This document shows, one piece after another, positions 44,760 through 64,000 of a DNA stretch of 64,000 bases (positions within the stretch are counted from its first letter, which is position 1; each line of letters begins with the position of its first letter). The notes under the pieces are model-generated. The model saw nothing but the letters and a program-made list of their open reading frames with translations, had not been told where the DNA came from and made no database searches. The position numbers and the translations under genes were made by a program. The DNA is taken from the NCBI GenBank assembly GCA_017513195.1, contig JAFXGM010000024.1:161634-225633 (forward strand), written 5' to 3'. Origin of the DNA: Clostridia bacterium (GTDB taxonomy: Bacteria; Bacillota; Clostridia; Oscillospirales; Acutalibacteraceae).

Positions 44760-47700
44760 ATGGAAGCTGCGAATAAAGCCGCGGTTGTCGCAATGCATAT
44801 AGGTGCGACAGCAGGACTTTTGGCAAAAAATATAGTTACAGAGTCAAATGATAATATTCAAAATAAAAATGATAATACTAGTTCAAATCTGGGATTCCTT
44901 GAAAATGGCAGACTACCACATCCAGATACGCTTGCACGTAAAAAAGGATTTAAAAATTATGATGAACTTGTGAAATATAAAGAAAAGAATCCAGAACTTT
45001 ACAATGCTATGGATGGGGTAAAATATGGTGAACTTGAAGGCTCCGTATTAGAAAGAAGAAATTTTGAATTAAGTAGCTTACGTTCAAAAGCAAAAGAAAA
45101 GATTATTGAGCGAATAAAAAATATTGATATTAATGAGTTGAAAAAATCAATTGAATTTTTTAATTCCAATGAATGGCAGAATTCGGATACCTCAAAAAAG
45201 CATAGCGATATCATTAATACATATGTTGACGATTGGATCGCGCTTGAAAATATGGGATATTTTAACCAACTTTCTAAAGATGAAAGAACAGGGTATGTTA
45301 CTGCGTTGCGAGAAATTAAACAAGGTGTGCAGGGTAAAAACTTTCTCTACACCAATTTTAATAATATAAATGAGTATAACTCGTTTATTATGAATAATAC
45401 AGCGGAATTAGAAGATGGCATGAGCACAAATAGTATACAAGCAAGGGTCAAAGCGTATGAAAGCTGTGTTGCGCGATTGGATGTAATTAAAAAACAAACA
45501 TCTAATATGTCGGATGAAGAGAAGTGGACTAAAAAAGCATCAAGCGGTAGCGGACGAATGATATATAGCACTAATGTGGAAACAAAAAAATATAAAGCAT
45601 TGTTAGATGAAAAAGAATATCTTGAAGAGCAAATTAGATTATATGAAATGTATAATAAGAAAAATGATAGTTTGGCTACTCAATTTGTAAATAGCGCAGA
45701 TTTTGCCGTTAATTCGGTCTATATACCACAAAAAGATTCAAGTGGTAAGCTTATAACATGGGACGTAAGTAATTATAGAGCATTTCTTGATTATTATAGT
45801 GTTGGTACTGATGCGCTTGTGCATTCTGAACGAGTAAGAAACGGCTTGGAACCGGACGATTATTGGTATGGTGGGCAGTCGCGTGGTTGGGATTATGCGA
45901 CTGAAGATGAATTTAAGATGCTAAATTATCTTGCTAATACACAGGGGGATGTGGCAGCACAAAGTTATTATGATGCACTATCAAGAGATTTGACACGCAG
46001 GCGAAGGATTGCAAAAGAACAAAAATGGGATGAAAATTACAAAAATGCGGAATGGTACGAAAAAATAGGATTAAATATATTGTCGGTACCCGAAAAGTTA
46101 TATGGGAATACTTTCAATGCTATAGAGGACCTTGGGAATTTGGTTACCGGACAGAAATATGACCCTTATGCTGCCTATAGAGATACAACTTCACATGCGG
46201 ACAACACAAGAAAAAATACTGCGATAGAGATTGAGGAATTAACGAATAATGCAGAGTTTTTAGGTGTGACGTGGGGCGATGCGTATCAAGCAGTGATGGC
46301 GGGTGTTGACTCTATTGCCGGTGTTGCTACATTTGGTGGCAAAATATATCCTGTTATAGCTGGTATGGGTGCTAGTTCAGCTAAAGCAAAACAATTATAT
46401 GAACAAGGTGCAAGTAATGAGCAAATTGCCGTGGCTTCAATTTTTGCCGGTGTTACTGAAATGGCATTTGAAAAAATTTCTATTGGTCATTTTTTAGATG
46501 AATTTGTGAATGCGCCTGCAAAAAAATGGTATCAATTGTTAGGGAAGGCTGCAATGCAAGGTGGTATTGAAATGAGTGAAGAAATGGCCACCGAGCTTTC
46601 AAATATAATTACGGATACACTAGTTTTGGGCAGTCGTTCTGAGTGGGAACAGCTAATTGCCTCGTATAAACAGCAAGGCTATAGCGATACTGATGCTGTT
46701 ATAAATGCTATGTGGGATAAAGGCGGAGATATACTTGAAGCGGGTATATGTGGTCTTATTTCAGGTGGGACTATAAGTAGTGCAGGTTCTACGGTAAATT
46801 ATTTATCCAACAATATTCAAGACGGTAATAAGGCATATATAAGTTTTGAAGAATTTTGCAATAATCATAGCACTATTTGGAATAATGTAGAATATTTTGA
46901 CGAACAAACAAAATTAGATATTATGCAAAAAACGCATGATGCAATGATACAAGATGGTGATATAGTAAAAGTACCGCAAAAAACAATAGAAAATGTAGCG
47001 GAATCATATCCTGATTTACGTGGGATCAAGAAAAAGGAACGCACACCAATACTTAAAGAATCAATACATAATCTTAAAGAAAATATACGTCAATTTTTAA
47101 ATAAATTCAAAAACAAAGACTTTGAGTTTGAAGTTAACGGAAAAATATTGGAGGCGCGTTTATATAGCACAGGAATAAATGAAGTGTTAGAAAAAATTAC
47201 GCAGGAAAAAGCAAATATGCTTTATTCCACAAAAGATATTTTTAAAAATTCCCGCTATTTATATTCAACGGCCGATTACGATGGAGAACCAAATGTGTAT
47301 CGATGGAATTATTTTTACACACCTGTGCAGATCGGTGAGGATATAGTTGGTGTACGAATTGCTATACGAGATATTGCAGAAGGACAATGGCATAGAGGAG
47401 AAAGTCAAATATATAACTGGAACATAAAAAAAGATATATCCTTGGACGGTGCGCAACCTGTCAAAAATAACTCATCACGCGATGTCTCATCAGATATATC
47501 TAATTATAATATACAAAATGAAAATGAAAATGTCAAGGGTGAACATGTGCAAAAAGGAGTGGCTTCACAAAGTGGGGCTGCTCCTTTTATTTCTAAAGAT
47601 GGTAGTATTAAAGCAGTACCGAATATTACAGAAAAAGATGGGATTCGCACAATAGATGTAGAAAAAATTATTGATGAAAAGGCGTTTGTTGAGGGGCTTT

Positions 47701-48188
47701 GGGAAGGTGCAGAGAACACCCAAAAAAATAATGTCGAAAAAAGTCAGTTGGAAAGTGTTGAAAATACCCAAGGAAATGGTATAATAGAAGAAACAAGGGT
47801 ACTAACACTTGATGATTTAACAAAGGATGTATTAAAGACAAAACCACTTTATTCGCCAAGACCTAAAAGGTGGTTGAAAAATGGTGGGAAAATTGAGATA
47901 GATACTAGCAATAATTGGATTTACACTAATTCAGATGGAATAAGTGTAAAGTACGTGGATGGATATCCCGATTTTAAAAGTGCAGAGTTAGTAAATCAAG
48001 AGGTGGATATTGGTGATTTTATTAATCGGGAAATAGATAAGAGAAAAGCTAAAAAGTTGGTTGAGCAAAATCCTAATACGGTATGGCATCATCCACCAAA
48101 TAGCAATATGCTTCAAGAAATTGATGCAAATATTCATCGACAGTTTACCCATATTGGACCGATGTCTAAAATTAGAAGAGGAGATTAG
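44760..48188 (+). CDS. Large phage effector protein with C-terminal WHH (HNH/ENDO VII) nuclease domain
   Basis: A 1142-residue protein. The N-terminal 500 residues are helical and charged. About residues 505-690 are hydrophobic and Gly/Ala-rich, with ATFGGKIYPVIAGMGASSAK and MQGGIEMSEEMATELSNI, resembling the same region of the giant ORF at 54602. Around residues 780-895 there is an LPD3-like domain (FEFEVNGKILEARLYSTGI, VGVRIAIRDIAEGQW). The C-terminus has a WHH nuclease signature: TVWHHPPNSNMLQEID (W1109-H1110-H1111) with later His1126 and His1131. An SUKH immunity gene follows after two bases. I infer a virion-associated or ejected effector carrying a toxin tip. Confidence 0.82.
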   Translation: MEAANKAAVVAMHIGATAGLLAKNIVTESNDNIQNKNDNTSSNLGFLENGRLPHPDTLARKKGFKNYDELVKYKEKNPELYNAMDGVKYGELEGSVLERRNFELSSLRSKAKEKIIERIKNIDINELKKSIEFFNSNEWQNSDTSKKHSDIINTYVDDWIALENMGYFNQLSKDERTGYVTALREIKQGVQGKNFLYTNFNNINEYNSFIMNNTAELEDGMSTNSIQARVKAYESCVARLDVIKKQTSNMSDEEKWTKKASSGSGRMIYSTNVETKKYKALLDEKEYLEEQIRLYEMYNKKNDSLATQFVNSADFAVNSVYIPQKDSSGKLITWDVSNYRAFLDYYSVGTDALVHSERVRNGLEPDDYWYGGQSRGWDYATEDEFKMLNYLANTQGDVAAQSYYDALSRDLTRRRRIAKEQKWDENYKNAEWYEKIGLNILSVPEKLYGNTFNAIEDLGNLVTGQKYDPYAAYRDTTSHADNTRKNTAIEIEELTNNAEFLGVTWGDAYQAVMAGVDSIAGVATFGGKIYPVIAGMGASSAKAKQLYEQGASNEQIAVASIFAGVTEMAFEKISIGHFLDEFVNAPAKKWYQLLGKAAMQGGIEMSEEMATELSNIITDTLVLGSRSEWEQLIASYKQQGYSDTDAVINAMWDKGGDILEAGICGLISGGTISSAGSTVNYLSNNIQDGNKAYISFEEFCNNHSTIWNNVEYFDEQTKLDIMQKTHDAMIQDGDIVKVPQKTIENVAESYPDLRGIKKKERTPILKESIHNLKENIRQFLNKFKNKDFEFEVNGKILEARLYSTGINEVLEKITQEKANMLYSTKDIFKNSRYLYSTADYDGEPNVYRWNYFYTPVQIGEDIVGVRIAIRDIAEGQWHRGESQIYNWNIKKDISLDGAQPVKNNSSRDVSSDISNYNIQNENENVKGEHVQKGVASQSGAAPFISKDGSIKAVPNITEKDGIRTIDVEKIIDEKAFVEGLWEGAENTQKNNVEKSQLESVENTQGNGIIEETRVLTLDDLTKDVLKTKPLYSPRPKRWLKNGGKIEIDTSNNWIYTNSDGISVKYVDGYPDFKSAELVNQEVDIGDFINREIDKRKAKKLVEQNPNTVWHHPPNSNMLQEIDANIHRQFTHIGPMSKIRRGD

Positions 48189-49034: not shown

Positions 49035-50927
49035 ATGATAAAGCTAAAAGCAGAACAAATTTGGTCGGAATATGAAGCAGGTCAGCAATATAAAAACAGT
49101 ATTGGTGACAAGGGTATACACGACCAGGCAAGAATAAACGAGAGATTTTTTGTAGGTGATCAGTGGCACGGTGTAAATGCCGGTAATGAAAAACCGCTGA
49201 CGAGGCGAAACATTATAAAGCGAATCGGAGAATATAAGATGGCTACCATCGGCAGCGCACCGATTGCTGTAAACTATAGCGCAGAGGGTGTACCCGATAC
49301 ATCGGATATAGAGGATAATAAAACCGCAGTAAGAGAGCAGCTGATGGGTGGCGAGGTGCCGAAAGGAAGTGCCAGTGATGCTGAAGTATCGGTTGTAATG
49401 AATGCGCTTACAAATTACTTTAAAATTACAGCCGAGAGGCTAAAATACGATGACAAAAAGGACCAGTTGCTAAGAAATGCATATATTTCGGGCACGGGTA
49501 TTTTATATACATATTGGGACAGTGATATTCGCACAGGATTATACGCCGACGAAGGCAGAACGGCACCGATTAAGGGCGATATTAACTGCGAAGTGTTAGA
49601 TATAGAAAACGTAGTATTTGGTGACCCGAATAACGAAGAGGTTGAAAGCCAGCCGTATATTATAATTGCGCGCAGAATGGACGTTGAAGCAGTAAAACGA
49701 GAGGCTGAAAAATATGGTCAGCCGGTGGAGGATATTGTTCCTGACGGGCAAAACGGTTTTTACCGCAACGCGGGTGATCGCGGTGAAGATGAGCCTGCAG
49801 ACTCAAAGCGAGTGACCGTAATCACAAAGTTATATAAAAAGTACGATGACAATGGTACCGCAACAATTTGGGGTAAGACAGTAACTGAAAATGCTGTTGT
49901 GCGCCCTGAATGGAATTTGCTGATACACAGATACCCAATTGCAAAATATATTTGGGAACGCAGACGCAGTTGCGCTTACGGCGACAGCGAGATAACCTAT
50001 CAAATCCCAAATCAAATAGCACTTAATCAAGCTCACTCTATTTCGGTATGGGCAATGCAGAACACCGGTATGCCAAAGACCGTTATTAACGGTGACCTTA
50101 TACCTGACGGAATATCAAATGATCCTGCTGAAGTTGTGAAGATTTATGGTAGTGCTGAAGATATGATGAGCGCGATACGCTACGTAGCACCACCAAACTA
50201 TGGCGCGGCATTTATAAACTTTACCGATGCCTTTGCTCAAAACGTGCTTATGGACAATGGCGCGAATGACGCGGCACTTGGTAATTTTATACCGGACAAT
50301 GCCACGGCTATTGTGCAAGCACGAGAAGCGGCTATTGCGCCGATGCAGATGTATCAAAACCGTTTTTACAGCGCAAACGAGGATGTGGCACGCATATGGG
50401 CAGATTTTTGGATTACAATGTACGGCAAGCGCTCTATTAAAGTAAATGATGGCGGTAATATACGCTATATGGTATTTGATGCCCAGCGTTATCGCGACCT
50501 TGTAATTACGGCGCGTATAGACGTTGGTGCATCGACACTTTGGAGCGAGGCGGTGTCGATTAGTAATCTTGGCAATTTGCTTATGTCACAGCAAATCAGC
50601 TTTATTGAATATCTTGAACGTTTGCCGAAGGGTCTTATTCCAGACGTTGGCGGCTTGCTTAATTCAAGAAAAGAGCAAGCGGCGGCGCAGCAGCAAGCAA
50701 TGGTACAACAACAGGATATGATGCAGCAGGCAACCGCACAGCCCGAAGTGACGCCCGACCAGATAGGCGATGAGGAAGTACTTGAATATATAAAACAAAC
50801 CAACCCTGAAGTTTATGAGAAGCTGATGAGCTTACCACCCGAAGACCAACAAAGAGCAATGACTATGATGAGAAACGGTGCTGGCAGTGCACCCGTACAA
50901 AATGAAAATATGGTAGGTGACTTATAA
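49035..50927 (+). CDS. Phage portal protein (P22-like)
   Basis: A 630-residue portal, the dodecameric ring through which DNA enters and leaves the head. It has the long N-terminal segment RINERFFVGDQWHGVNAG, the wing/stem region ISGTGILYTYWDSD, a middle AYGDSEITYQIPNQIALNQAHSIS and a C-terminal Gln/Met-rich tail (QQQAMVQQQDMMQQ). Length over 600 and this layout fit portals of short-tailed phages. It is unusual that the gene lies 4.4 kb downstream of the capsid gene, separated by a toxin module. The stop overlaps the next gene. Confidence 0.88.
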   Translation: MIKLKAEQIWSEYEAGQQYKNSIGDKGIHDQARINERFFVGDQWHGVNAGNEKPLTRRNIIKRIGEYKMATIGSAPIAVNYSAEGVPDTSDIEDNKTAVREQLMGGEVPKGSASDAEVSVVMNALTNYFKITAERLKYDDKKDQLLRNAYISGTGILYTYWDSDIRTGLYADEGRTAPIKGDINCEVLDIENVVFGDPNNEEVESQPYIIIARRMDVEAVKREAEKYGQPVEDIVPDGQNGFYRNAGDRGEDEPADSKRVTVITKLYKKYDDNGTATIWGKTVTENAVVRPEWNLLIHRYPIAKYIWERRRSCAYGDSEITYQIPNQIALNQAHSISVWAMQNTGMPKTVINGDLIPDGISNDPAEVVKIYGSAEDMMSAIRYVAPPNYGAAFINFTDAFAQNVLMDNGANDAALGNFIPDNATAIVQAREAAIAPMQMYQNRFYSANEDVARIWADFWITMYGKRSIKVNDGGNIRYMVFDAQRYRDLVITARIDVGASTLWSEAVSISNLGNLLMSQQISFIEYLERLPKGLIPDVGGLLNSRKEQAAAQQQAMVQQQDMMQQATAQPEVTPDQIGDEEVLEYIKQTNPEVYEKLMSLPPEDQQRAMTMMRNGAGSAPVQNENMVGDL

Positions 50928-54601: not shown

Positions 54602-57600
54602 ATGGCAATATTAGATCCATCAAGATTTAATATTAAACCTGGCAGTGAAAAAAACACTTCTATTTCAATAGATCCAACAAGGATACATCTTAGTAAGATG
54701 ACTGAAAACGATATAAAGTATAACAAGTCAGTGATGAATGAAAAAATCAATTCGCAACGAAGTGATATATTACTTTCGGCGCCGAAGATTGTAAATGGTA
54801 GGCTGACCGTCGACAATGATGCTTTGGCGCAGAGCAAAGGCTTTATTAATGCTATGGATGAGGTGAATTATAAGGCTAATAATCCTGATTTATATGAAGC
54901 CTCTGGTGGTGTTAAAGTTATAAAACCGGGTACAAATGTGGATATGTCCGGTGCGCCTTTAAAATCTGTGGGTACATATGATCATAACTATGCAACGAAT
55001 TTAAGTAGTGCGGCGGTCAACAAGGCTTATGAGAATTCTAATAGTGATAAAGTCAAAGAGGTCGTGAACATAGTCAATACGATAAAATCAGGTAAGTGGT
55101 TCGATGCTAATACTATGAAAAAGTACAGTGAAACAGTTAGCTCATATGCTAATGGTGTTATTATGCTTAATGAACTTGGACTTTTGAATTTCAATACTGA
55201 AGAAGATAGAAAAAGCACGATAGACAGCTTGAAAACGCTAAAGGATGATGTTAATAAAATAAAAAATTATTATGCAGAATATAAGGATGTAGATAGTTAC
55301 AATAAATCCGTATGGAATAACAAATACGGCGTTATGACATGGGATGAGTTGGTAGAACGACAAAAGCAATTACAAGTTTCTTTGCCTAGTCAAGACAGCA
55401 GCACTATGAAAGAATTAGCATTTATTAATAATATTCTTTCTAATAGAGATAAGCAAATGTGGGACGCGATGGCGAACTTAAAGGGCAAAAATATTAATGA
55501 AATAAACGAAATTGCAAGCGGATATTTTTACGCCGGAGAAGATTATAAAAAATATAATGGTTATATAGAAACTTTCAAAAACACCCACAAGGATTCTGAG
55601 ATTAAAGATTTTGAATCGGATGAAGAAATTGATGCATACGTTAAGGAAGCAAGAGAATTTTTTGTGGAATACCGCAAGGAAAACGGAAGTTTTGATGGTG
55701 CAAGGGAAGCGTATCAGCTTAAAAAAGGTTATCTCAACTACGACGGAAAACCTGATAAACTCGAAGAAAAAAGCACTTTTCTACTTAATATGGCTGAAAA
55801 ATTAGCGAGACTTGAAGTTTCATATGGCAATGAGGAATTTGTTGAAGATTTTTATGAAAAAGAAGAAGAATATAGATGGAATTTAATGTCAAGTCAAGAA
55901 TTTCGTAAGTACTATGCGGAGATGCAGGATGATCCAAATGCGAGTAGTTACATAGCTAAGGGCAAAGAAAAGTATGACATAAAGGACGAGAACATTTCCG
56001 AAGAAGAATATAACGTTGCTTGTTATCATCTTGGAAAAGGAGCAACAAAGAAACATGATTATTTTGTATGGCTTAAAGACTGGGTTTACAAACGCGAGGT
56101 GGCAGCCAAAGATGGTTGGTCGGCACTTAGTGATGGTGAAACACTTAAATATCATACGTTGTGGTCGGATTATACTAATGATGCACCACTAGAAGCAAAT
56201 ATTATGTCAGTAGCGCTTAATCTTGGTTCGGGAATAGAATTTGCACACAATGCTCTTAATGGCGAGATAAAGGAAAGTAAATTAAGCAAGGCAAGTTCAA
56301 AAATAAGAGAAGCGTATGCGAATTCGCATGATGGTGAATTTTTGGGGATTGACTATGACTTTTTGTATAATACGGTAATGTCAGGGATAGATAGTCTTAC
56401 AGCGGGTAAATTATTTGGTAAAGGTAAAGTGGCCGTTGAGGCTGCATCAATTCTTCTCGGTTTGTCTGCAGCGGCTTCAGGTGTCAACGATGCACTTGAT
56501 AGAGGTATGACAGGCGCACAAGCGCTTTTCAATGGTTTAGCAAATGGTATAAATGAATACCTTTGGGAAAAAGTTTCTTTAGGGCAACTAGATAAGTTAT
56601 CGGCTTCAAATGGTGCAGAATTTAAGACTTGGTTTAAGAATCTTTTGAAAGAAAGTTTTGTAAATGCAACAGAAGAAACTGCTACAGAAGCTTCTAATAT
56701 GTTGTACGACACTGTGTTTAACGGCGATTTGTCACATTATTCATTAAGTGTGCAACGATATATAGATAATGGTCTTACTGAAGAAGAAGCAAAAAATCAA
56801 GCATTAAAAGATTTGGGAAACCAAATCGCAGAAGCGGCTGGAAGCGGTGCTTTGATGGGTTTTGGTTTTTCTTTTGTGGGAAACACATCAGCATCTATTA
56901 ACGCAGCACGATATGGTAAATATTATTACGGTTTTTCACAAAAGAGTGTTTATGCGCTTGTGGATAACGGTTTGGCGATGCCGGAAGGTAGTGAAGCTTA
57001 TAAGTTGGCAATTAAGTCAGACGCAAAACTTAAGAAGGGTAAAAACTTGTCGGGTACGGCGCTTTATAATCTTGCTACGGCAATTGAGAGTGAGATTGAG
57101 ACCAAGAGCAAAACACGATTTAGTGAATTGGGAATTGATAAAAAGGCAGCTAAAGAGTTGTCGCCTATTGTGGCGAAGGCGGTGTTTGGTGAAAAACTTA
57201 ATTCAGCAGAACGCGCGACGCTTAACAATAGTGAGATAGCGACGCAGGTTGTAAAAGAACTATCTGCAGATAGAGCGAATACCGTTTGGAAAGATGCGAT
57301 AAAAAACAGTCGCAACAATAACGTGGATGAGAATAATGCAGTGACTGAGCAAGGTGAGGTTTTGCAATTGGCTACAGACGGTGTGGTTGACAGTGATAAT
57401 AAATTTAACTATAATTATAGTAAAAAAGAAGGTGAAAAGTATGCAGAAGATTACCAAGGAACAATGGGAGCGTTTGGGCGAGAAATCAGAGAAGATGACG
57501 CCGGAGGAAAAAGCGAAAATGCAGAAATTACAAAAGAAGATAAAATCTCTTTCAAAAGAAGAATTAAGAGAACTTACAAAAATTCCGGACGACTGTTTGT

Positions 57601-60600
57601 TCATCTAAATGTAACAGTTGGTTGCAAAGAACCCAAAACAATCAATAGTAATTCACCCGCGGGTATGGCATATGCTATTTTAAAATCAAAAGGATATAAT
57701 GTTATATATTGCGATGGACCAATACAAATAAACAATAATGAATATACTGTAGAAAGAACTCAAGCAGTAACAATATTTGATGGGACGATATATATTTCAG
57801 GTGATTCTACACTCAACGGAGACGGTATAGCTCTACACGAGGTCGTGCATGTATGGCAATATTCTAATATGGAAGAGTATTTGAATTATAAGGATGTACT
57901 ATGCGAAGAGCTCATCCTTACAAGTGAAAAATATAAAGAAATCGCCAGAGAAATAAACGATAATCATTATAATGGTAGATACGATATCGAAGATATAAAT
58001 TCTTTTGAGCATATAATACGAGAATTGGCTGCATATATAAGTCAATATGTTTGTACCAATCCTAAATTTGCAAGAGAAAAATTCGCCGAAATGTTTGAAA
58101 ATTGGGAAAATGTTGTACAAGCTGTTTACAACATGAATGATAAACTCGGATTTGGCGATGTAATAAAAGAAGCAATCACAGAAACGCAGGTTGCTTTTTT
58201 AAATTCAAATGAAACACAAACAAATGGAATTGATGCAGATGAATTTATTAAAGGCATTAGTGGAGAAGATAGTGGTGATAGTGAAAGTTTTGTTCAAAAC
58301 AGTACAAACGCGGTTACAAATCCGCTAAGTAGTTATGCGCCGGAAAAGAGGGGTATGATAATTGACTTTCTTAATTCGGTTGATGAAAAACTTAAGGCGT
58401 TTGTTGAGAGAGTAAAAAATGGTAGTAATAAATTTGAAAGATTTACTATATCCGACGTGAGTGACCGAGAAGCTGCTGATATTAAGTATTTGTTAGGTAT
58501 TGATGTTGATGGGTACACGCATAACATAAACACAAATGGTATAAGGCATATACTTAAGCGACACGGCATTAGTGGTAGTCACGACCACACGATGTCAAAC
58601 AATAATGATATTGCCCGAATGGGTTGGGTAATAAAGAACTATGATAGTGTAGAAGTGTTGTTTAAAAAAGGTGAGGTTGCTACAAGTGATGAGTTTAGAG
58701 ATACGATAAATAGACGTGCACCACAGATACGATACAGTAAAAAAATAAACGGCACCTACTATGTAGTAGAGGCTGTTTTTGAAAATAATTATAACAAATT
58801 GTGGGTGCAGTCGGCATATTTAAAAAATAATAAAGAAGGCGTTACGCAAGATCCTGCTGAAAGTCAAAAAGACCAACCACATGACCACGCCCGAAGCGCA
58901 CTTGCATCTCCGCCTTCTTATGAAGTGGTTACGCAGGTCCCTAATGCTGCCAAAAGGCTCCCCATGGTTACGTCCGAAACGCCAGCTGCTTCTCCCACTT
59001 CTAATAACAATGTATCACAGAGCGGAAATTTTGTCAATGACAAATATTTGGGAGAAAAGTCGAGTTTTGCAAATGATAATATGCAGGCAATAATTCAGGC
59101 TGTGTATGGAGATAGTCTAAAGTTCGGTAACAATGAGGTTTCGCAGTCGAATGCAGATGGTGTGGTTGATGGTGATATTGCTGCAACGCAACATAATGAA
59201 AATTCGAAGTTGCAATCTAATAAAAAAAATAATATAATTAATTCGGTAGGTGATAATTTTGTTAACAAAGAAGCAGATAATGAAAGCGTTCGGGAAATCA
59301 GAGAAAAATACTTCCGAAAAATCGGAGACGATTTCCAAGGAGGTATATCAGAAACTGCTGAAACTTTCTCCGAAAGAACGCGCAGAAATAGCCTTGAAGG
59401 AAGTGGAAAAGAGAGGTTACTTTTAAATGAAGGGAAGTTAATTATTGCATATACCCCTGTAAAAGACGATAATTCGCCAAAAAATATTTTCTTTAAAAAA
59501 TTGCGTGAGCGTGGAATAGACATTTACTATTGTGACGGTGTTATAGAAACTAACGTTGATGGAATAACTCTGGTACATAATCAGGCAATTACTACAAGAG
59601 GCGGAAAAATATTTGTTTCAAATGTAGCAACGGTTGAATTTAAGAGTATGATGGATCATGAACTTGTTCATTGGAAAATGAGAATGTTTAGCGATTCGTA
59701 TTTTGAATATGAAGACATTGTGTTACGAAATTTGAACCGAGAATCAAATTACTATATTGATTTTTGTGAAGAGTTAAATTTACGGGAATATAATAATAGA
59801 TATGATATTAATACTATTGAAGGTGCAATAGCACTTAACTCGGAAATAACTGCGTATGTATATCAATATGTCTTGAATGACAGTAACTTTGCAGAAAATT
59901 TCTTTTCAAAAATGTTTTTTGATTGGCATAATGTAAAAAATGCTGTTAAACGCTTTAACAGCAAGATGGAAATTAATACCGAACTATTTAATCAGGTGGG
60001 CTCATATGATGAGTCTGCTTTTTTTGCTTATAAAAACAAAATTGAAAATAATACAACCGAGCAAGGTGAGGTTTTGCAGTCAACTGCAGATGGGGTGGTT
60101 GATAATGTTGCAGGCAGTACCGTTGCACAACAAGGTGGACAGGTTGATGCGCCCGAAGGTGTTGGAGCTGTTCAAAGTGATTCTAACGGAGTAGCATCAC
60201 CAGGTGTGGTTCGAGGTGCTGACGGTAAGCAGTACTTTGACGATGATAGTGGGGATGAACATTTTGGTGAACACGAAATATCGTATTTATCAGAAAGTGA
60301 TGTCATATCGTCTTTTGATATAAAAAGAATGAATGATACTATTCATGTTCAGGAAAAAGTATTTGAAACTCTTTTAGATGAAGGCTTTTTTGAGGATTTT
60401 AATGAACGAAAAACATTGGTAAAAAACAAATCCAGTGGCATGATTATTGAAATTAATAAGAGCGGTATTAGGGAAACATTTAATTATCACAATTTTACAC
60501 AAATGCCACATGAAATAATGATGGATAAATTATTGTTGATTAGAAATCTTCCTTTGATTATAAGAAATGGTAAGATTATCGAAGATAATGTCAAAAATAT

Positions 60601-63600
60601 TCATAGCCCAAAAACGTCAGTAAGTTATGCCTATATAGTTCAAACCGTTAGAATTAACGGGGTTGAAAAGGTTGCCACAGTAGTTATTAGAAAATCGCCG
60701 CAAAAGAATAAATTTTGGACTTTGCAAATTGATATAAAAAATAACATTGGAAGCACACCTGCTGGAATTTCACAGAATTCTATAACAGGACTTCTTACTT
60801 CCAATGTCAATGATAGTTTATCACAAAAATTTAAATTCGTCAATATAGGAAATAATTTTGACGGTAGTGGGGATGAATATTTTGGTGACACATCAGGTGA
60901 TGACGTCACCCATGGCGGTGATGAATATGATAATGTAGCACACCTCACCACCGCCGAAGACGGAGCCTCTCCTCAAGGAGAAGCCTCTGACAGCAGTTCG
61001 TTTGATTTAACCGAACCCACACCAAAAGATATAGCACGTGCGCCTACGGCTGAGGAAGCGATTGAGGAAGCCATAACCGGCAAGCAGAAAACAAATATAC
61101 AGCGGCATATAGTAGATATTTGTAAAAAACTATTTCCAAATATAACTGTAGAGTTTGTTGATAAAATTGATGAAAAAGGCAAGATTAAAGGTAAGTTTAT
61201 ACGAAGTCAGAATAAAATACTTATTCGTTCGGACCTTAATGCTGTGCAGATGTATATAGAAGTGTTTAAGCATGAATTTATGCATAGGCTTGAGACAAAG
61301 GCGCTTTATAGCAAGTTCTTTAATTATTGCTTTAAAAAAAGTAAGGCATTCGAGCAATATGTGAGAGCAGAACTTAATGCCGCAGGTTTTGAGATTGACG
61401 CGGCAACGCGTGAGAGTGCACTTCAGGATTATACCAACTATAAGTATGAGCAGTATAAAAATGCTGAGGGTATACCACAAGAAGACCGAGATGCTTTTAC
61501 AATGGAAATGGCAAGGGAAGAGATTATTGCAGATTTCTTTGCGCAAATATTAATCCAAGGTAAGCAATACCGCGCGAGAATAATTGAGGCGCTTGAAAAT
61601 GCTGACGGGGAATCGCTTATTGGTATAGGTGATGAAATAAGTAGCGAAGCGGCGCTAATGGAACTAAAACAAAAAGAACCTACTCTTTATGAGCAGGTTA
61701 AACAGTGGATTAGGGATATTATAGATAAGCTACGCGGTATGCCACAGGCGAAGAGTGTAGTAACCGACCTTGAGTATATGGAAAGTCTGCTTACAAGGGT
61801 TTATAACTCGAAAGATAGCAAGCGACTGATGAAGAAAAAGCTTAATGAAGAAAAATATCTTATTGCCGGAGAAAAATCACAAACGGCAAATCACAGTTTA
61901 CTCTTCGAGGCACAACTACGTGCGTATAAAGGTGAAGATAGCGAAAGCATCCGACGTGATACCGGCTGGTACAAAGGTAGAGATGGCAAGTGGAGATATT
62001 ATATACCGGATAATGAGCTTAATATTGATCGACTTATTGACTTTGCAAATTCGGATGAAGACGTTGCGTTGCTTGGTGATGTAATAGTGCATGATAAATT
62101 GTTTGCAGCGTATCCGGAACTTAAAAGTGTTAAAGTTGAGTTTAAAAATCTCAAAGAACATAGTTATGGGGAGTTTATACCAAATAAAAATATCATTTAT
62201 TTCGATTATGGTTTGTTGAATAATAGGGAAATGTTTGTTGATGTGTTAATACATGAAACACAGCATGCAATACAAGTTGTAGAGGGTTTTGCGCGAGGCG
62301 GCAACGAAAAAACAGGATTTTATTATGCAATAAATATAGCATACGATATGGTTAGCAGGAGCAAAGAGTTTAATAGTCTTGCGACCAAGGAAGAAAAGTT
62401 TGATTACTTGTGTAATATAGCACTAAAGTTATTTGATGCTAACAGTTTGGAAGAACTAGCCTATAAATCATATTTGAAAATTTACGGTGAGGTAGAAGCA
62501 AGAGAAGTATCAAAATACCGTGAGTATGATGAAAATCTTTTGCAAATGGTTGAGCCTATTATTGACGGTAATATTGTAAGTTTTAAAGCGGAAGAAAATA
62601 AATTCTTTACAATGCTAAAACTCTTGGGTTATAATGATAATGAAATAAAAAGTTTTCTTAAAAAGGTTGGTATTACAAGTGTTTACAAATGGAGAAATGG
62701 CTATATGGATAGCCGAGGTGATATATCGGGAGTGCAAAGAGTCTGGAATAACATTGGAGGAATTAATGAGTTCGGCGGCTACAAAAGAAACAATTTTGAC
62801 ACACTGGGCGATAGAGGATGGCGAACTGTATTACTCAACGGCGGACCCGATAGCCGAGCTGCAATTTCTAATGAAGGAAGCGAAAACAAAGGAAAACTTT
62901 TGGGAACAGGAGTTCGTGCCACATTATCCACGAAAGAGAAACCTATATCGAACAGAGGATTGGATGAAAAATCCGTAATTGAAAACACTGGACTTTATTA
63001 CGCTATAAATACCGCGTATGATATGGTTAGCAGGAGCGAAGAGTTTAATAATCTTGCGAACAAGGAAGAAAAGTTTAATTACTTGTGCAATATAGCACTA
63101 AAGTTATTTGATGCTAACAGTTTGGAAGAACTAGCCTATAAATCATATTTGAAAATTTATGGTGAAGTGGAAGCCCGTCAGGTCACACGAAATCGTCTTT
63201 TTGATGATGAACTTTTGAGGTATGCAACGCCCGATGTATCAGGTAACGTTGTTGACGTTACCGATGAAAGTATAAAATTTATTGAAAACTTTACCGAGAT
63301 GGGTTATACTGAAAAAGAAATATTGAAATTTTTTAGAGGTGTGACAAGTGACGAATCGAGAAGCGTTGGAAATATTGAGAAAAGAAGTGGAATTGATAAA
63401 GAAAAATCCAAATTTCGAAAGCGAAATATCTTTTGGACCGAGAGCGGAACTGATGCTGTTAGAAGGATGGATGAAGGAGGAGCCCGAAATGATGGAAGAG
63501 GAGTTCGAAGCAGCATTTCCCCCTTGGGTGGAATAAGTGGTAGAGGTTCAAGTGTAGATAGTGATATAATCGTTGAAAAAAACATGGGCGTTAGAGGTGT

Positions 63601-64000
63601 CAACCAAAAAACAGGATTTTATTATGCAACAAATAAAAAAATGAGTAGTTCTCAATATCTCGCTGATTTAAATGAAATCCGCAAGGCGTACGTCCAAGAC
63701 GTTAAAGAGAACTACTCTAATTTTATTATACCCAATTCTTTCGGAAATGTCAATATTGAAGGTAATAATGGGGCGTCTTTGGATCAATATTCTTTAAGTT
63801 CACCATTACAGGAATTTAAAAATAATAATGAGTTTGAACTAAGTGAGCCAGATATAGATAACATAGAAATATCTGACGAAGTAGAGTTTTTGGTGGGTTT
63901 AAATGGTGTTAAGTTAAGTAAAACACAAAAGCATATTGTAGATATTTGTAAAAATCTTGATTCTAATATTACTGTTGAATTTGTAGATAATCTTGAAACA
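54602..64000 (+). CDS. Giant phage polyvalent protein (3' end outside window)
   Basis: One frame is open from ATG 54602 to the window end, 3133 codons, with no stop. Residues 1-900 resemble the N-terminal core of the WHH-toxin protein: KGFINAMDEVNYKANNPDLYEA, and a hydrophobic ASILLGLSAAASGVNDALD around 620. Then follow metallopeptidase-like HEVVH (1079-1083, Glu1141 as possible third ligand), a PBECR-type nuclease region (about 1247-1407, INTNGIRHILKRHG), HELVH (1686-1690), an LPD3-like region (about 1909-2050), HEFMH (2224-2228), and an LPD23-like region with TGWYKGRDGKWRYYIPD, HETQH (2551-2555) and GEVEAR. Linkers are Ser/Asn/Gly/Gln-rich. It is likely a delivered multi-effector protein. 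Domain names are from memory. Confidence 0.85.
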   Translation, partial: MAILDPSRFNIKPGSEKNTSISIDPTRIHLSKMTENDIKYNKSVMNEKINSQRSDILLSAPKIVNGRLTVDNDALAQSKGFINAMDEVNYKANNPDLYEASGGVKVIKPGTNVDMSGAPLKSVGTYDHNYATNLSSAAVNKAYENSNSDKVKEVVNIVNTIKSGKWFDANTMKKYSETVSSYANGVIMLNELGLLNFNTEEDRKSTIDSLKTLKDDVNKIKNYYAEYKDVDSYNKSVWNNKYGVMTWDELVERQKQLQVSLPSQDSSTMKELAFINNILSNRDKQMWDAMANLKGKNINEINEIASGYFYAGEDYKKYNGYIETFKNTHKDSEIKDFESDEEIDAYVKEAREFFVEYRKENGSFDGAREAYQLKKGYLNYDGKPDKLEEKSTFLLNMAEKLARLEVSYGNEEFVEDFYEKEEEYRWNLMSSQEFRKYYAEMQDDPNASSYIAKGKEKYDIKDENISEEEYNVACYHLGKGATKKHDYFVWLKDWVYKREVAAKDGWSALSDGETLKYHTLWSDYTNDAPLEANIMSVALNLGSGIEFAHNALNGEIKESKLSKASSKIREAYANSHDGEFLGIDYDFLYNTVMSGIDSLTAGKLFGKGKVAVEAASILLGLSAAASGVNDALDRGMTGAQALFNGLANGINEYLWEKVSLGQLDKLSASNGAEFKTWFKNLLKESFVNATEETATEASNMLYDTVFNGDLSHYSLSVQRYIDNGLTEEEAKNQALKDLGNQIAEAAGSGALMGFGFSFVGNTSASINAARYGKYYYGFSQKSVYALVDNGLAMPEGSEAYKLAIKSDAKLKKGKNLSGTALYNLATAIESEIETKSKTRFSELGIDKKAAKELSPIVAKAVFGEKLNSAERATLNNSEIATQVVKELSADRANTVWKDAIKNSRNNNVDENNAVTEQGEVLQLATDGVVDSDNKFNYNYSKKEGEKYAEDYQGTMGAFGREIREDDAGGKSENAEITKEDKISFKRRIKRTYKNSGRLFVHLNVTVGCKEPKTINSNSPAGMAYAILKSKGYNVIYCDGPIQINNNEYTVERTQAVTIFDGTIYISGDSTLNGDGIALHEVVHVWQYSNMEEYLNYKDVLCEELILTSEKYKEIAREINDNHYNGRYDIEDINSFEHIIRELAAYISQYVCTNPKFAREKFAEMFENWENVVQAVYNMNDKLGFGDVIKEAITETQVAFLNSNETQTNGIDADEFIKGISGEDSGDSESFVQNSTNAVTNPLSSYAPEKRGMIIDFLNSVDEKLKAFVERVKNGSNKFERFTISDVSDREAADIKYLLGIDVDGYTHNINTNGIRHILKRHGISGSHDHTMSNNNDIARMGWVIKNYDSVEVLFKKGEVATSDEFRDTINRRAPQIRYSKKINGTYYVVEAVFENNYNKLWVQSAYLKNNKEGVTQDPAESQKDQPHDHARSALASPPSYEVVTQVPNAAKRLPMVTSETPAASPTSNNNVSQSGNFVNDKYLGEKSSFANDNMQAIIQAVYGDSLKFGNNEVSQSNADGVVDGDIAATQHNENSKLQSNKKNNIINSVGDNFVNKEADNESVREIREKYFRKIGDDFQGGISETAETFSERTRRNSLEGSGKERLLLNEGKLIIAYTPVKDDNSPKNIFFKKLRERGIDIYYCDGVIETNVDGITLVHNQAITTRGGKIFVSNVATVEFKSMMDHELVHWKMRMFSDSYFEYEDIVLRNLNRESNYYIDFCEELNLREYNNRYDINTIEGAIALNSEITAYVYQYVLNDSNFAENFFSKMFFDWHNVKNAVKRFNSKMEINTELFNQVGSYDESAFFAYKNKIENNTTEQGEVLQSTADGVVDNVAGSTVAQQGGQVDAPEGVGAVQSDSNGVASPGVVRGADGKQYFDDDSGDEHFGEHEISYLSESDVISSFDIKRMNDTIHVQEKVFETLLDEGFFEDFNERKTLVKNKSSGMIIEINKSGIRETFNYHNFTQMPHEIMMDKLLLIRNLPLIIRNGKIIEDNVKNIHSPKTSVSYAYIVQTVRINGVEKVATVVIRKSPQKNKFWTLQIDIKNNIGSTPAGISQNSITGLLTSNVNDSLSQKFKFVNIGNNFDGSGDEYFGDTSGDDVTHGGDEYDNVAHLTTAEDGASPQGEASDSSSFDLTEPTPKDIARAPTAEEAIEEAITGKQKTNIQRHIVDICKKLFPNITVEFVDKIDEKGKIKGKFIRSQNKILIRSDLNAVQMYIEVFKHEFMHRLETKALYSKFFNYCFKKSKAFEQYVRAELNAAGFEIDAATRESALQDYTNYKYEQYKNAEGIPQEDRDAFTMEMAREEIIADFFAQILIQGKQYRARIIEALENADGESLIGIGDEISSEAALMELKQKEPTLYEQVKQWIRDIIDKLRGMPQAKSVVTDLEYMESLLTRVYNSKDSKRLMKKKLNEEKYLIAGEKSQTANHSLLFEAQLRAYKGEDSESIRRDTGWYKGRDGKWRYYIPDNELNIDRLIDFANSDEDVALLGDVIVHDKLFAAYPELKSVKVEFKNLKEHSYGEFIPNKNIIYFDYGLLNNREMFVDVLIHETQHAIQVVEGFARGGNEKTGFYYAINIAYDMVSRSKEFNSLATKEEKFDYLCNIALKLFDANSLEELAYKSYLKIYGEVEAREVSKYREYDENLLQMVEPIIDGNIVSFKAEENKFFTMLKLLGYNDNEIKSFLKKVGITSVYKWRNGYMDSRGDISGVQRVWNNIGGINEFGGYKRNNFDTLGDRGWRTVLLNGGPDSRAAISNEGSENKGKLLGTGVRATLSTKEKPISNRGLDEKSVIENTGLYYAINTAYDMVSRSEEFNNLANKEEKFNYLCNIALKLFDANSLEELAYKSYLKIYGEVEARQVTRNRLFDDELLRYATPDVSGNVVDVTDESIKFIENFTEMGYTEKEILKFFRGVTSDESRSVGNIEKRSGIDKEKSKFRKRNIFWTESGTDAVRRMDEGGARNDGRGVRSSISPLGGISGRGSSVDSDIIVEKNMGVRGVNQKTGFYYATNKKMSSSQYLADLNEIRKAYVQDVKENYSNFIIPNSFGNVNIEGNNGASLDQYSLSSPLQEFKNNNEFELSEPDIDNIEISDEVEFLVGLNGVKLSKTQKHIVDICKNLDSNITVEFVDNLET
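57441..57608 (+). CDS. Nested +1-frame ORF a (55 residues)
   Basis: It lies wholly inside the giant ORF but in the +1 frame. It starts MQKITKEQWERLGEKSEKMT and continues highly charged and helical to LTKIPDDCLFI. GAAGGTGAAAAGT precedes the ATG. The giant-ORF frame across the same bases reads as a low-complexity charged linker just before the first HExxH domain. It resembles nested ORF b (GEKSEK..T, then SLSKEELREL against KLSPKERAEI). No function is known. A free-standing small protein or relic of an ancestral two-gene cassette are the main options. Confidence 0.5.
   Translation: MQKITKEQWERLGEKSEKMTPEEKAKMQKLQKKIKSLSKEELRELTKIPDDCLFI
59259..59426 (+). CDS. Nested +1-frame ORF b (55 residues)
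   Basis: It lies inside the giant ORF, in the +1 frame, starting at TTG 59259 (GGTGAT upstream) or ATG 59280. It reads MLTKKQIMKAFGKSEKNTSE, then VYQKLLKLSPKERAEIAL and ends EKRGYF. It is Lys/Glu-rich, helical and similar in length and pattern to ORF a. Like ORF a it sits immediately before an HExxH domain of the large frame (HELVH). The large frame over this stretch is a Ser/Arg/Glu-rich linker. Coding status is inferred from composition and recurrence. Confidence 0.48.
   Translation: MLTKKQIMKAFGKSEKNTSEKSETISKEVYQKLLKLSPKERAEIALKEVEKRGYF
62306..63178 (+). repeat. Direct tandem repeat inside the giant ORF
   Basis: Bases 62306-62503 and 62981-63178 (198 bases each, 675 apart) encode the same segment, from TG(F/L)YYAIN through AYDMVSRS to IYGEVEAR. 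A central stretch of about 70 bases is identical. A third short copy of the TGFYYA start lies at 63611. Nested ORFs c and d fill the spaces between copies. The repeat carries the GEVEAR ligand segment but not the HETQH motif. Confidence 0.85.
62679..62978 (+). CDS. Nested +1-frame ORF c (about 99 residues)
   Basis: In the +1 frame of the giant ORF. GTG 62679 (AGGTTGG upstream; the frame extends to TTG 62667) leads to MAIWIAEVIYRECKESG, LEELMSSAATKETILTHW and EDGELYYSTADPIAELQFL, ending TEDWMKNP. Its amino-acid use looks like a folded acidic protein. The large frame over the same bases is a Gly/Asn/Arg/Ser-rich linker (GGINEFGGYKRNNFDTLGD). It starts at the end of the HETQH-associated domain and ends where a duplicate of that domain's tail begins. 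No family is recognised. Confidence 0.55.
   Translation: MFTNGEMAIWIAEVIYRECKESGITLEELMSSAATKETILTHWAIEDGELYYSTADPIAELQFLMKEAKTKENFWEQEFVPHYPRKRNLYRTEDWMKNP
63348..63536 (+). CDS. Nested +1-frame ORF d (62 residues)
   Basis: In the +1 frame of the giant ORF. GTG 63348 has AGAGGTG at a 7-base spacing. It reads MTNREALEILRKEVELIKKN, then SFGPRAELMLLEGWMKEE and ends EAAFPPWVE: acidic, helical and natural-looking. The large frame here is an Arg/Gly/Ser-rich linker (RRMDEGGARNDGRGVRSS). The context copies ORF c: it begins after a GY..KEI..F...G(I/V)TS segment and ends before a TGFYYA segment. It may be a relative of ORF c (WMKEEP.MMEEEFEAAFP against LMKEAKTKENFWEQEFVP). Confidence 0.55.
   Translation: MTNREALEILRKEVELIKKNPNFESEISFGPRAELMLLEGWMKEEPEMMEEEFEAAFPPWVE

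Follow-up and report, generated by a model that had tools for sequence, protein, structure and literature searches.

Four small genes appear to be nested, in the +1 frame, within the linkers of a giant phage gene in the genome of a Clostridia bacterium. What is unusual about these open reading frames (ORFs) is coding-like composition combined with ribosome-binding sites. Our analysis favors, with somewhat better than even confidence, the view that they are real small genes, probably encoding partners of the neighboring protein modules; translation of the four ORFs, as judged from their sequences, is likely.

A giant polyvalent-protein gene and the ORFs in its linkers

The window analyzed is a stretch of 64,000 nucleotides from a 1.88-Mb assembly; all giant-frame features and nested ORFs described here lie on its forward (+) strand. 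The giant ORF (54602..64000) has, as the initial annotation stated, no stop from 54602 onward, 3133 codons being open up to the end of the contig, which is also the end of the window, so that the 3′ end of the gene lies beyond the available sequence. Three Pfam domains score above their curated cut-offs in the translated product (LPD23, 5.9e-18; PBECR3, 4e-14; LPD3, 1.2e-8), a DUF6782-like stretch falls below the cut-off of its own family, and HExxH motifs were read from the translation. Because of its PBECR3, LPD3, and LPD23 domains, the predicted product is classed as a phage polyvalent protein (one polypeptide combining several disparate domains, LPD and PBECR types among them) in the sense of a survey that describes giant multidomain proteins with zincin-like HExxH peptidases and predicts their injection with DNA (PMC5512222). 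The gene sits among phage structural genes, as polyvalent proteins do, with a portal gene upstream (49035-50927; phrog_156, 8e-17).

The giant gene contains duplicated cassettes. A first HExxH (HEVVH) module (57617..58249) has a paralog in a second (HELVH; 59429..60013), and the two regions, at 57.6 and 59.4 kb, are identical at 87 of 288 aligned positions with the linker included (BLAST). An LPD23 domain and an HExxH (HETQH) peptidase with its tail (61862..62565) are followed by a second copy of the tail (62981..63330, a duplicate of about 62327-62680); the tail at 62.3 kb and its repeat at 63.0 kb share 107 of 245 positions (BLAST). The tail copies (62327-63155) are nearly identical initially and then lose similarity suddenly, which looks like a recent recombination event in the first segment. 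The stretch 60965-61171 recurs in a further copy that begins at 63797..63997, where the contig stops; because the contig ends inside this copy, the assembly probably broke on the repeat (63797-64000) and the giant gene is longer than seen. The phrase EVLQ/EVSQ..ADGVVD or TDGVVD is common to three linkers (57356, 59135, and 60060) and may mark a recombination joint between modules. Upstream of the portal gene, a second large ORF (1142 aa, 44760-48188) is kin to two parts of the giant (44904-45398 at 1e-12 and 46242-46793 at 5e-16 in local BLAST); it also matches parts of very long PHROG families without known function.

The four +1-frame ORFs are present where the initial annotation had placed them, with stops at 57608, 59426, 62978, and 63536. 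ORF1 (57441..57608, 55 aa) lies in the linker before the first HExxH module and starts with ATG at 57441, 5 nt after a Shine-Dalgarno-like AGGTGA (57430..57435); ORF2 (59259..59426, 55 aa) lies in the linker before the second module and starts with TTG at 59259, again 5 nt after an AGGTGA (59248..59253). ORF4 (63348..63536, 62 aa), after tail copy 2, starts with GTG at 63348, 6 nt after a Shine-Dalgarno-like GAGGTG (63336..63341). These three starts, each with a 6-nt match, agree with those proposed at the outset; that of ORF3, after tail copy 1, is revised. Its best signal is not at the proposed 62679 (99 aa) but at the ATG at 62766, 5 nt after a Shine-Dalgarno GGAGG (62756..62760), giving 62766..62978 and 70 aa; the best +1 coding-score window here begins at 62762, in line with that start. 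Each ORF is thus contained entirely within the giant ORF and has its own start, stop, and translation start signal, a geometry like that of phage lambda Rz1. The predicted products, 55-70 aa long, are charged and mostly helix-prone. All four share the +1 frame, as had been pointed out, but this is not informative: of 336 background shifted ORFs of at least 50 aa, 306 are also +1, as expected from the lower frequency of stops in that frame (0.062 vs 0.101 per codon).

Coding scores and start signals against the genomic background

The background consisted of 445 mechanically picked long ORFs from 57 stretches (671 kb) of the same genome, plus 41 elsewhere in the window; each coding score was computed from the earliest start in its frame. 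Shifted ORFs of at least 50 aa are denser in the giant gene (11, or 1.17 per kb) than in the background (0.60 per kb), where 25 in 564 kb reach 95 aa. By absolute coding score, ORF3, ORF4, ORF1, and ORF2 rank 2, 4, 6, and 18 among 347 shifted ORFs; the top rank is held by a stretch near the start of a long ORF, which we read as apparently normal protein in the other frame. Scores above -0.06 are reached by 4 of the 11 shifted ORFs of the giant and by 22 of 336 elsewhere (Fisher p 0.006).

The Shine-Dalgarno test draws on bases other than those behind the coding score. A Shine-Dalgarno match of at least 6 nt precedes 10 of 333 background shifted ORFs and three of the four nested ORFs (Fisher p 0.0002), the match of ORF3 (GGAGG) being of 5 nt. 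The four nested ORFs score 0.028, 0.025, 0.003, and -0.035, and none of 48 background shifted ORFs of at least 45 aa with a match of at least 5 nt (564 kb) scores above -0.039. When both properties are combined, four ORFs in 9.4 kb compare with three in 564 kb (0.05 expected; Poisson p 2.5e-7, with a score cut-off picked after the scores were known); in a rank version that needs no cut-off, the best four of 54 candidates bearing a Shine-Dalgarno match all lie in the giant gene, which holds six of the 54 (p 4.7e-5).

The +1 score exceeds that expected under synonymous resampling of the giant frame for ORF1 (p 0.0003), ORF2 (p 0.0165), ORF3 (p <0.00025), and ORF4 (p 0.004). Because the same resampling gives background ORFs a mean z of 1.57 already, only ORF3 and ORF1 are notable by this measure (ranks 6 and 9 among 347, with ORF4 at 21 and ORF2 at 33). 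Permutation of codon order leaves a significant excess for ORF3 alone (p 0.0005; ORF1 0.05, ORF2 0.19, ORF4 0.43). In a scan by 150-nt windows, ORF3 and ORF4 each have one window in which +1 outscores the other five frames; over ORF1 and ORF2 the +1 score goes up yet remains below that of the giant frame.

These results bear on a rival explanation, in which the codon content of the linkers (much Arg, Gly, Glu, Lys, and Ser, little T) leaves, as a by-product, a +1 frame that is open and charged-helical-looking but untranslated. Permuted codons do score in +1 like the originals for ORF2 and ORF4, and almost so for ORF1, and mostly +1 shifted ORFs abound in the background; the giant-frame linkers of the duplicate modules, moreover, align on into the next module (BLAST), and in the giant frame the ORF1 linker can be aligned with that of a relative, L027 (p 0.001, as one comparison out of eight; 0.002 in a second test). 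Left unexplained are the Shine-Dalgarno sites, the permutation result for ORF3, and the frame change that withstands permutation in L027 and a second relative, L062. We consider this explanation doubtful, though one to be taken seriously.

When the +1 proteins were held fixed and their codons redrawn (20,000 draws each), the giant frame was open in 0.4%, 0.4%, 1.0%, and 0% of draws over the four ORFs. The giant frame would rarely be open by accident over the nested proteins, which suggests that it is held open by selection as well; both frames look maintained. Over all four ORFs the giant frame has the synonymous codon usage of an out-of-frame reading, at the 0 to 1st percentile of true frames by host and phage usage and at the 1st to 6th percentile when measured against late phage genes. 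Native synonymous codon usage in +1 is lacking in ORF2, ORF3, and ORF4. Usage poor in the giant frame and clearly better in +1, the pattern to be expected had a small gene come first, is present in L027, L062, and ORF1, but not clearly in the other three. Synonymous codon usage alone was dropped as a detector of nested genes, as the giant frame is poor elsewhere too, where there is no nested ORF. In a Pro/Ala/Ser-rich linker after PBECR3 (58862-59071) the giant-frame coding signal is lost as well; a +1 ORF there has a Shine-Dalgarno match no longer than 4 nt.

The out-of-frame-like usage over all four would also fit relics, that is, once-separate small genes or segments shifted by compensating indels that the giant frame has overprinted and that are now nonfunctional. 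The same is suggested by the low coding score of the giant frame across the nested ORFs of L027 and L062. Against relics stand the start, stop, and Shine-Dalgarno site retained in these two relatives despite divergence of the nested protein to 49% identity, and the fact that each of the six +1 frames (four in the window, two in relatives) has its own stop, where a simple double frameshift needs none. We regard relics as improbable. An origin by compensating indels, suggested by a resemblance of the ORF2 +1 product to the relatives' giant-frame linker, was rejected as not significant (p 0.06 and 0.64).

Nested ORFs in relatives of the first HExxH module

For the first HExxH module, two relatives could be used: L062, from isolate RUG798, and L027/L061, from isolate RGIG2049 (goat colon), in which L027 and L061 are taken as one contig because they have the same length and mirrored coordinates. 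The modules of L062 and L027 are 56% identical over 190 positions, and each carries a 51-codon +1 ORF that spans the linker and the start of the module. The two ORFs share their ATG and TAA and have AAGGAGG 9 nt ahead of the start, and their proteins are the pair just cited as 49% identical. Among 57 shifted ORFs of at least 45 aa in the long ORFs of eight relatives' loci (L062 being covered up to base 1060), a Shine-Dalgarno match of at least 6 nt is found in two, both of them the nested ORF described here, with 7 nt.

The two frames are easier to separate in L027, because of the G+C content of the gene (0.62 as a whole, about 0.50 at the nested ORF). When the scoring model was trained on the remainder of the L027 gene, the nested ORF reached +0.086 in +1, with -0.239 for the giant frame, as against -0.38 to -0.92 for the other 15 shifted ORFs of the gene, over which the giant frame scores +0.09 to +0.36; the six lowest giant-frame windows of the gene all overlap the nested ORF. 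In 90-nt windows the frame change covers roughly the nested ORF, with the giant-frame score declining just before the ORF start and one window at the ORF end slightly preferring the other strand. The +1 excess by resampling in L027 and L062 amounts to z 6.4 and 6.8 with L027 codon usage and 3.9 and 3.9 with L062 usage; it holds with uniform usage (p 0.0003 and 0.001) and under codon permutation (p <0.00025 and 0.0043), and is weaker with the AT-rich usage of the window's genome (p 0.04 and 0.025). Further along L062 (1100-2893), the forward frame continuing the module lies open over an opposite-strand ORF, which we take from its appearance to be an adenine deaminase; the open length there is no evidence of a longer polyvalent protein.

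The drop in G+C from 0.62 to about 0.50 at the L027 nested ORF, and a geometry like that of the out-of-frame HNH insertions of phage methylases (PMC11855218), recall mobile insertions: small in-frame, stop-free elements with a hidden gene that promotes their own spread. In ShiLan, as apparently in the giant gene, a stretch without stops in the host frame encodes, out of frame, another protein that has a start and a stop of its own. That protein is an HNH endonuclease of 195 aa for which no ribosome-binding site could be detected (PMC11855218), unlike the 51-70 aa products of the window and the relatives, for which no HNH family was found and Shine-Dalgarno sites are present. Nor does any product, at 51-70 aa, match a nuclease family (HNH or other homing endonuclease) above cut-off, and among the few relatives there is no insert-free copy of the module, both module relatives carrying the nested ORF; insertions of this type are highly improbable here.

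L062 was compared with L027 for the synonymous constraint expected over a nested ORF. Changes are fewer there (8 of 30 vs 20 of 36 conserved codons, p 0.025). When only the giant frame was simulated, +1 conservation exceeded expectation both ways (0 of 3000 simulations one way, p 0.0027 the other way), but so did that of frame +2 (p 0.002). Use of the local synonymous rate reduces the +1 excess to p 0.05 and 0.46, and neither frame shows an excess in six control windows downstream. The constraint is regional and not clearly frame-specific, and comes from one pair of relatives with small overlap-aware counts. The nested start and stop are identical in L027 and L062, yet their nested protein has no detectable likeness to ORF1 or ORF2 (p 0.2 to 0.95); the nested ORFs accompany the same module with starts and stops offset. 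The recurrent dual coding proposed initially is supported by start signals and coding scores, in the window and also, as separate evidence, in two relatives of a single module, whereas frame-specific constraint is not clear.

Within the window, ORF1 and ORF2 are alike in +1 (p 0.006) and in the giant frame (p 0.005), and because the likeness is present in both frames it has no power to choose between them. The likeness of ORF3 to ORF4 is weak in +1 (p 0.024) and absent from the giant frame (p 0.15). For the LPD23 module, the relatives identified (42 phage records and six other genomes of 391) did not extend into the ORF3 and ORF4 linkers in any case. No relative carrying the giant gene was found in the searches made, and none of three portal relatives has it: in L058 other genes follow the portal, L059 stops about 3 kb past it, and L060 (86% identical) breaks off within it.

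Candidate partners of effectors predicted to be injected

The small proteins have no stand-alone homologs in the collections and genomes searched with ORF1, ORF3, ORF4, and the L027/L062 protein (ORF2 was searched against family libraries and by local BLAST only), contrary to what descent from separate partner genes had led the initial annotation to seek; by the same searches, ORF2 excluded, no small gene stands as a partner beside an effector elsewhere, as in toxin-antitoxin systems. ORF3 was searched in sets of 60 and 123 genomes and in phages, plasmids, and viral contigs and returned the window itself, plus two records of one Pantoea phage (E 8); ORF1 and ORF4 had no match in phages. In a search of 391 genomes of the class at E up to 1, ORF4 hit 38, counting the window's own genome, and 39 places besides the window itself. 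Of these, the 29 for which a locus was available were aligned (L029-L057, best local alignment each) and were rejected as homologs, since they look like chance; the three best (E 0.007 to 0.03) we take to be peptide release factor 2, and the others presumably ABC transporters and the like. The L062/L027 nested protein had no confirmed match in viral contigs and, in 138 genomes, matched only L027's own genome and, weakly (E 0.005), the inside of a 253-aa frame.

No family was found above curated cut-offs for the four window ORFs in Pfam, NCBIfam, PHROGs, and PADLOC, nor above cut-off for the nested proteins of L027 and L062 in Pfam, PADLOC, and PHROGs. The best weak match is of ORF1 to DUF3106 (E 0.0036; 18.2 bits, cut-off 24.3). 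Matches of ORF3 to designed TIM barrels among solved structures (8e-7 and 1e-5) were taken as an artefact, no stretch passing alone, and a phrog_8570 match of long-form ORF3 (E 0.007) is gone with the short form.

If the four are small genes, ribosomes on the giant frame would pass through each linker and read it as a flexible spacer, while others would initiate within the linker at the Shine-Dalgarno site and produce a protein of 55-70 aa, so that each linker may be read twice and both products made. The small product could in turn serve the neighboring peptidase or effector module as an inhibitor or chaperone; it would be synthesized alongside that module in the producing cell but would lie outside the chain predicted to be injected with DNA. 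A partner role of this kind, acting through obligatory co-production, would account for a small gene staying with its cassette, and seems the most economical use of that co-production; given translation, we put such a role for the adjacent module at a little under even. Restraint in the producing cell and release on injection follow if both the partner role and injection hold. The full proposal, that each dangerous module carries a built-in, out-of-frame inhibitor or chaperone that is left behind at injection, with the effector armed only in the next host, is speculative, and we hold it to be unlikely.

Nesting of this kind has precedents. In lambda, Rz1 is a small phage gene fully nested in the +1 frame of the larger Rz, over a mutation-tolerant stretch of the host protein; there the partner function is proven, whereas in the giant gene four nested ORFs occur in one gene and their partner role is conjectural (PMC5295617). 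The hepadnavirus polymerase likewise has a linker between enzyme domains, the spacer, which overlaps a small gene, that for the surface protein, and which has been attributed to a new frame that arose within the small gene and linked the two genes on either side of it (PMC8227390). That case belongs to an animal virus with a far longer overlap, while here the arrangement would be repeated at several linkers of one gene (PMC8227390). Nested genes are absent from the passages of the polyvalent-protein survey, as is the word "overlapping" from its text (PMC5512222). Within the terms searched, no title or abstract on nested genes in polyvalent proteins was found in the open-access literature. As far as these searches show, linker-nested genes are known in other viruses, and the presence of several beside the modules of one polyvalent protein is new.

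Short ORFs within long ones are usually discarded by annotation. A screen that combines a start signal with a coding score judged against the genome's own shifted ORFs is applicable to all giant phage genes. Should hidden small genes prove common in the linkers of polyvalent proteins, some of the toolkit injected by phages has been overlooked and, if the partner role is true, so has part of what keeps that toolkit harmless to the producing cell.
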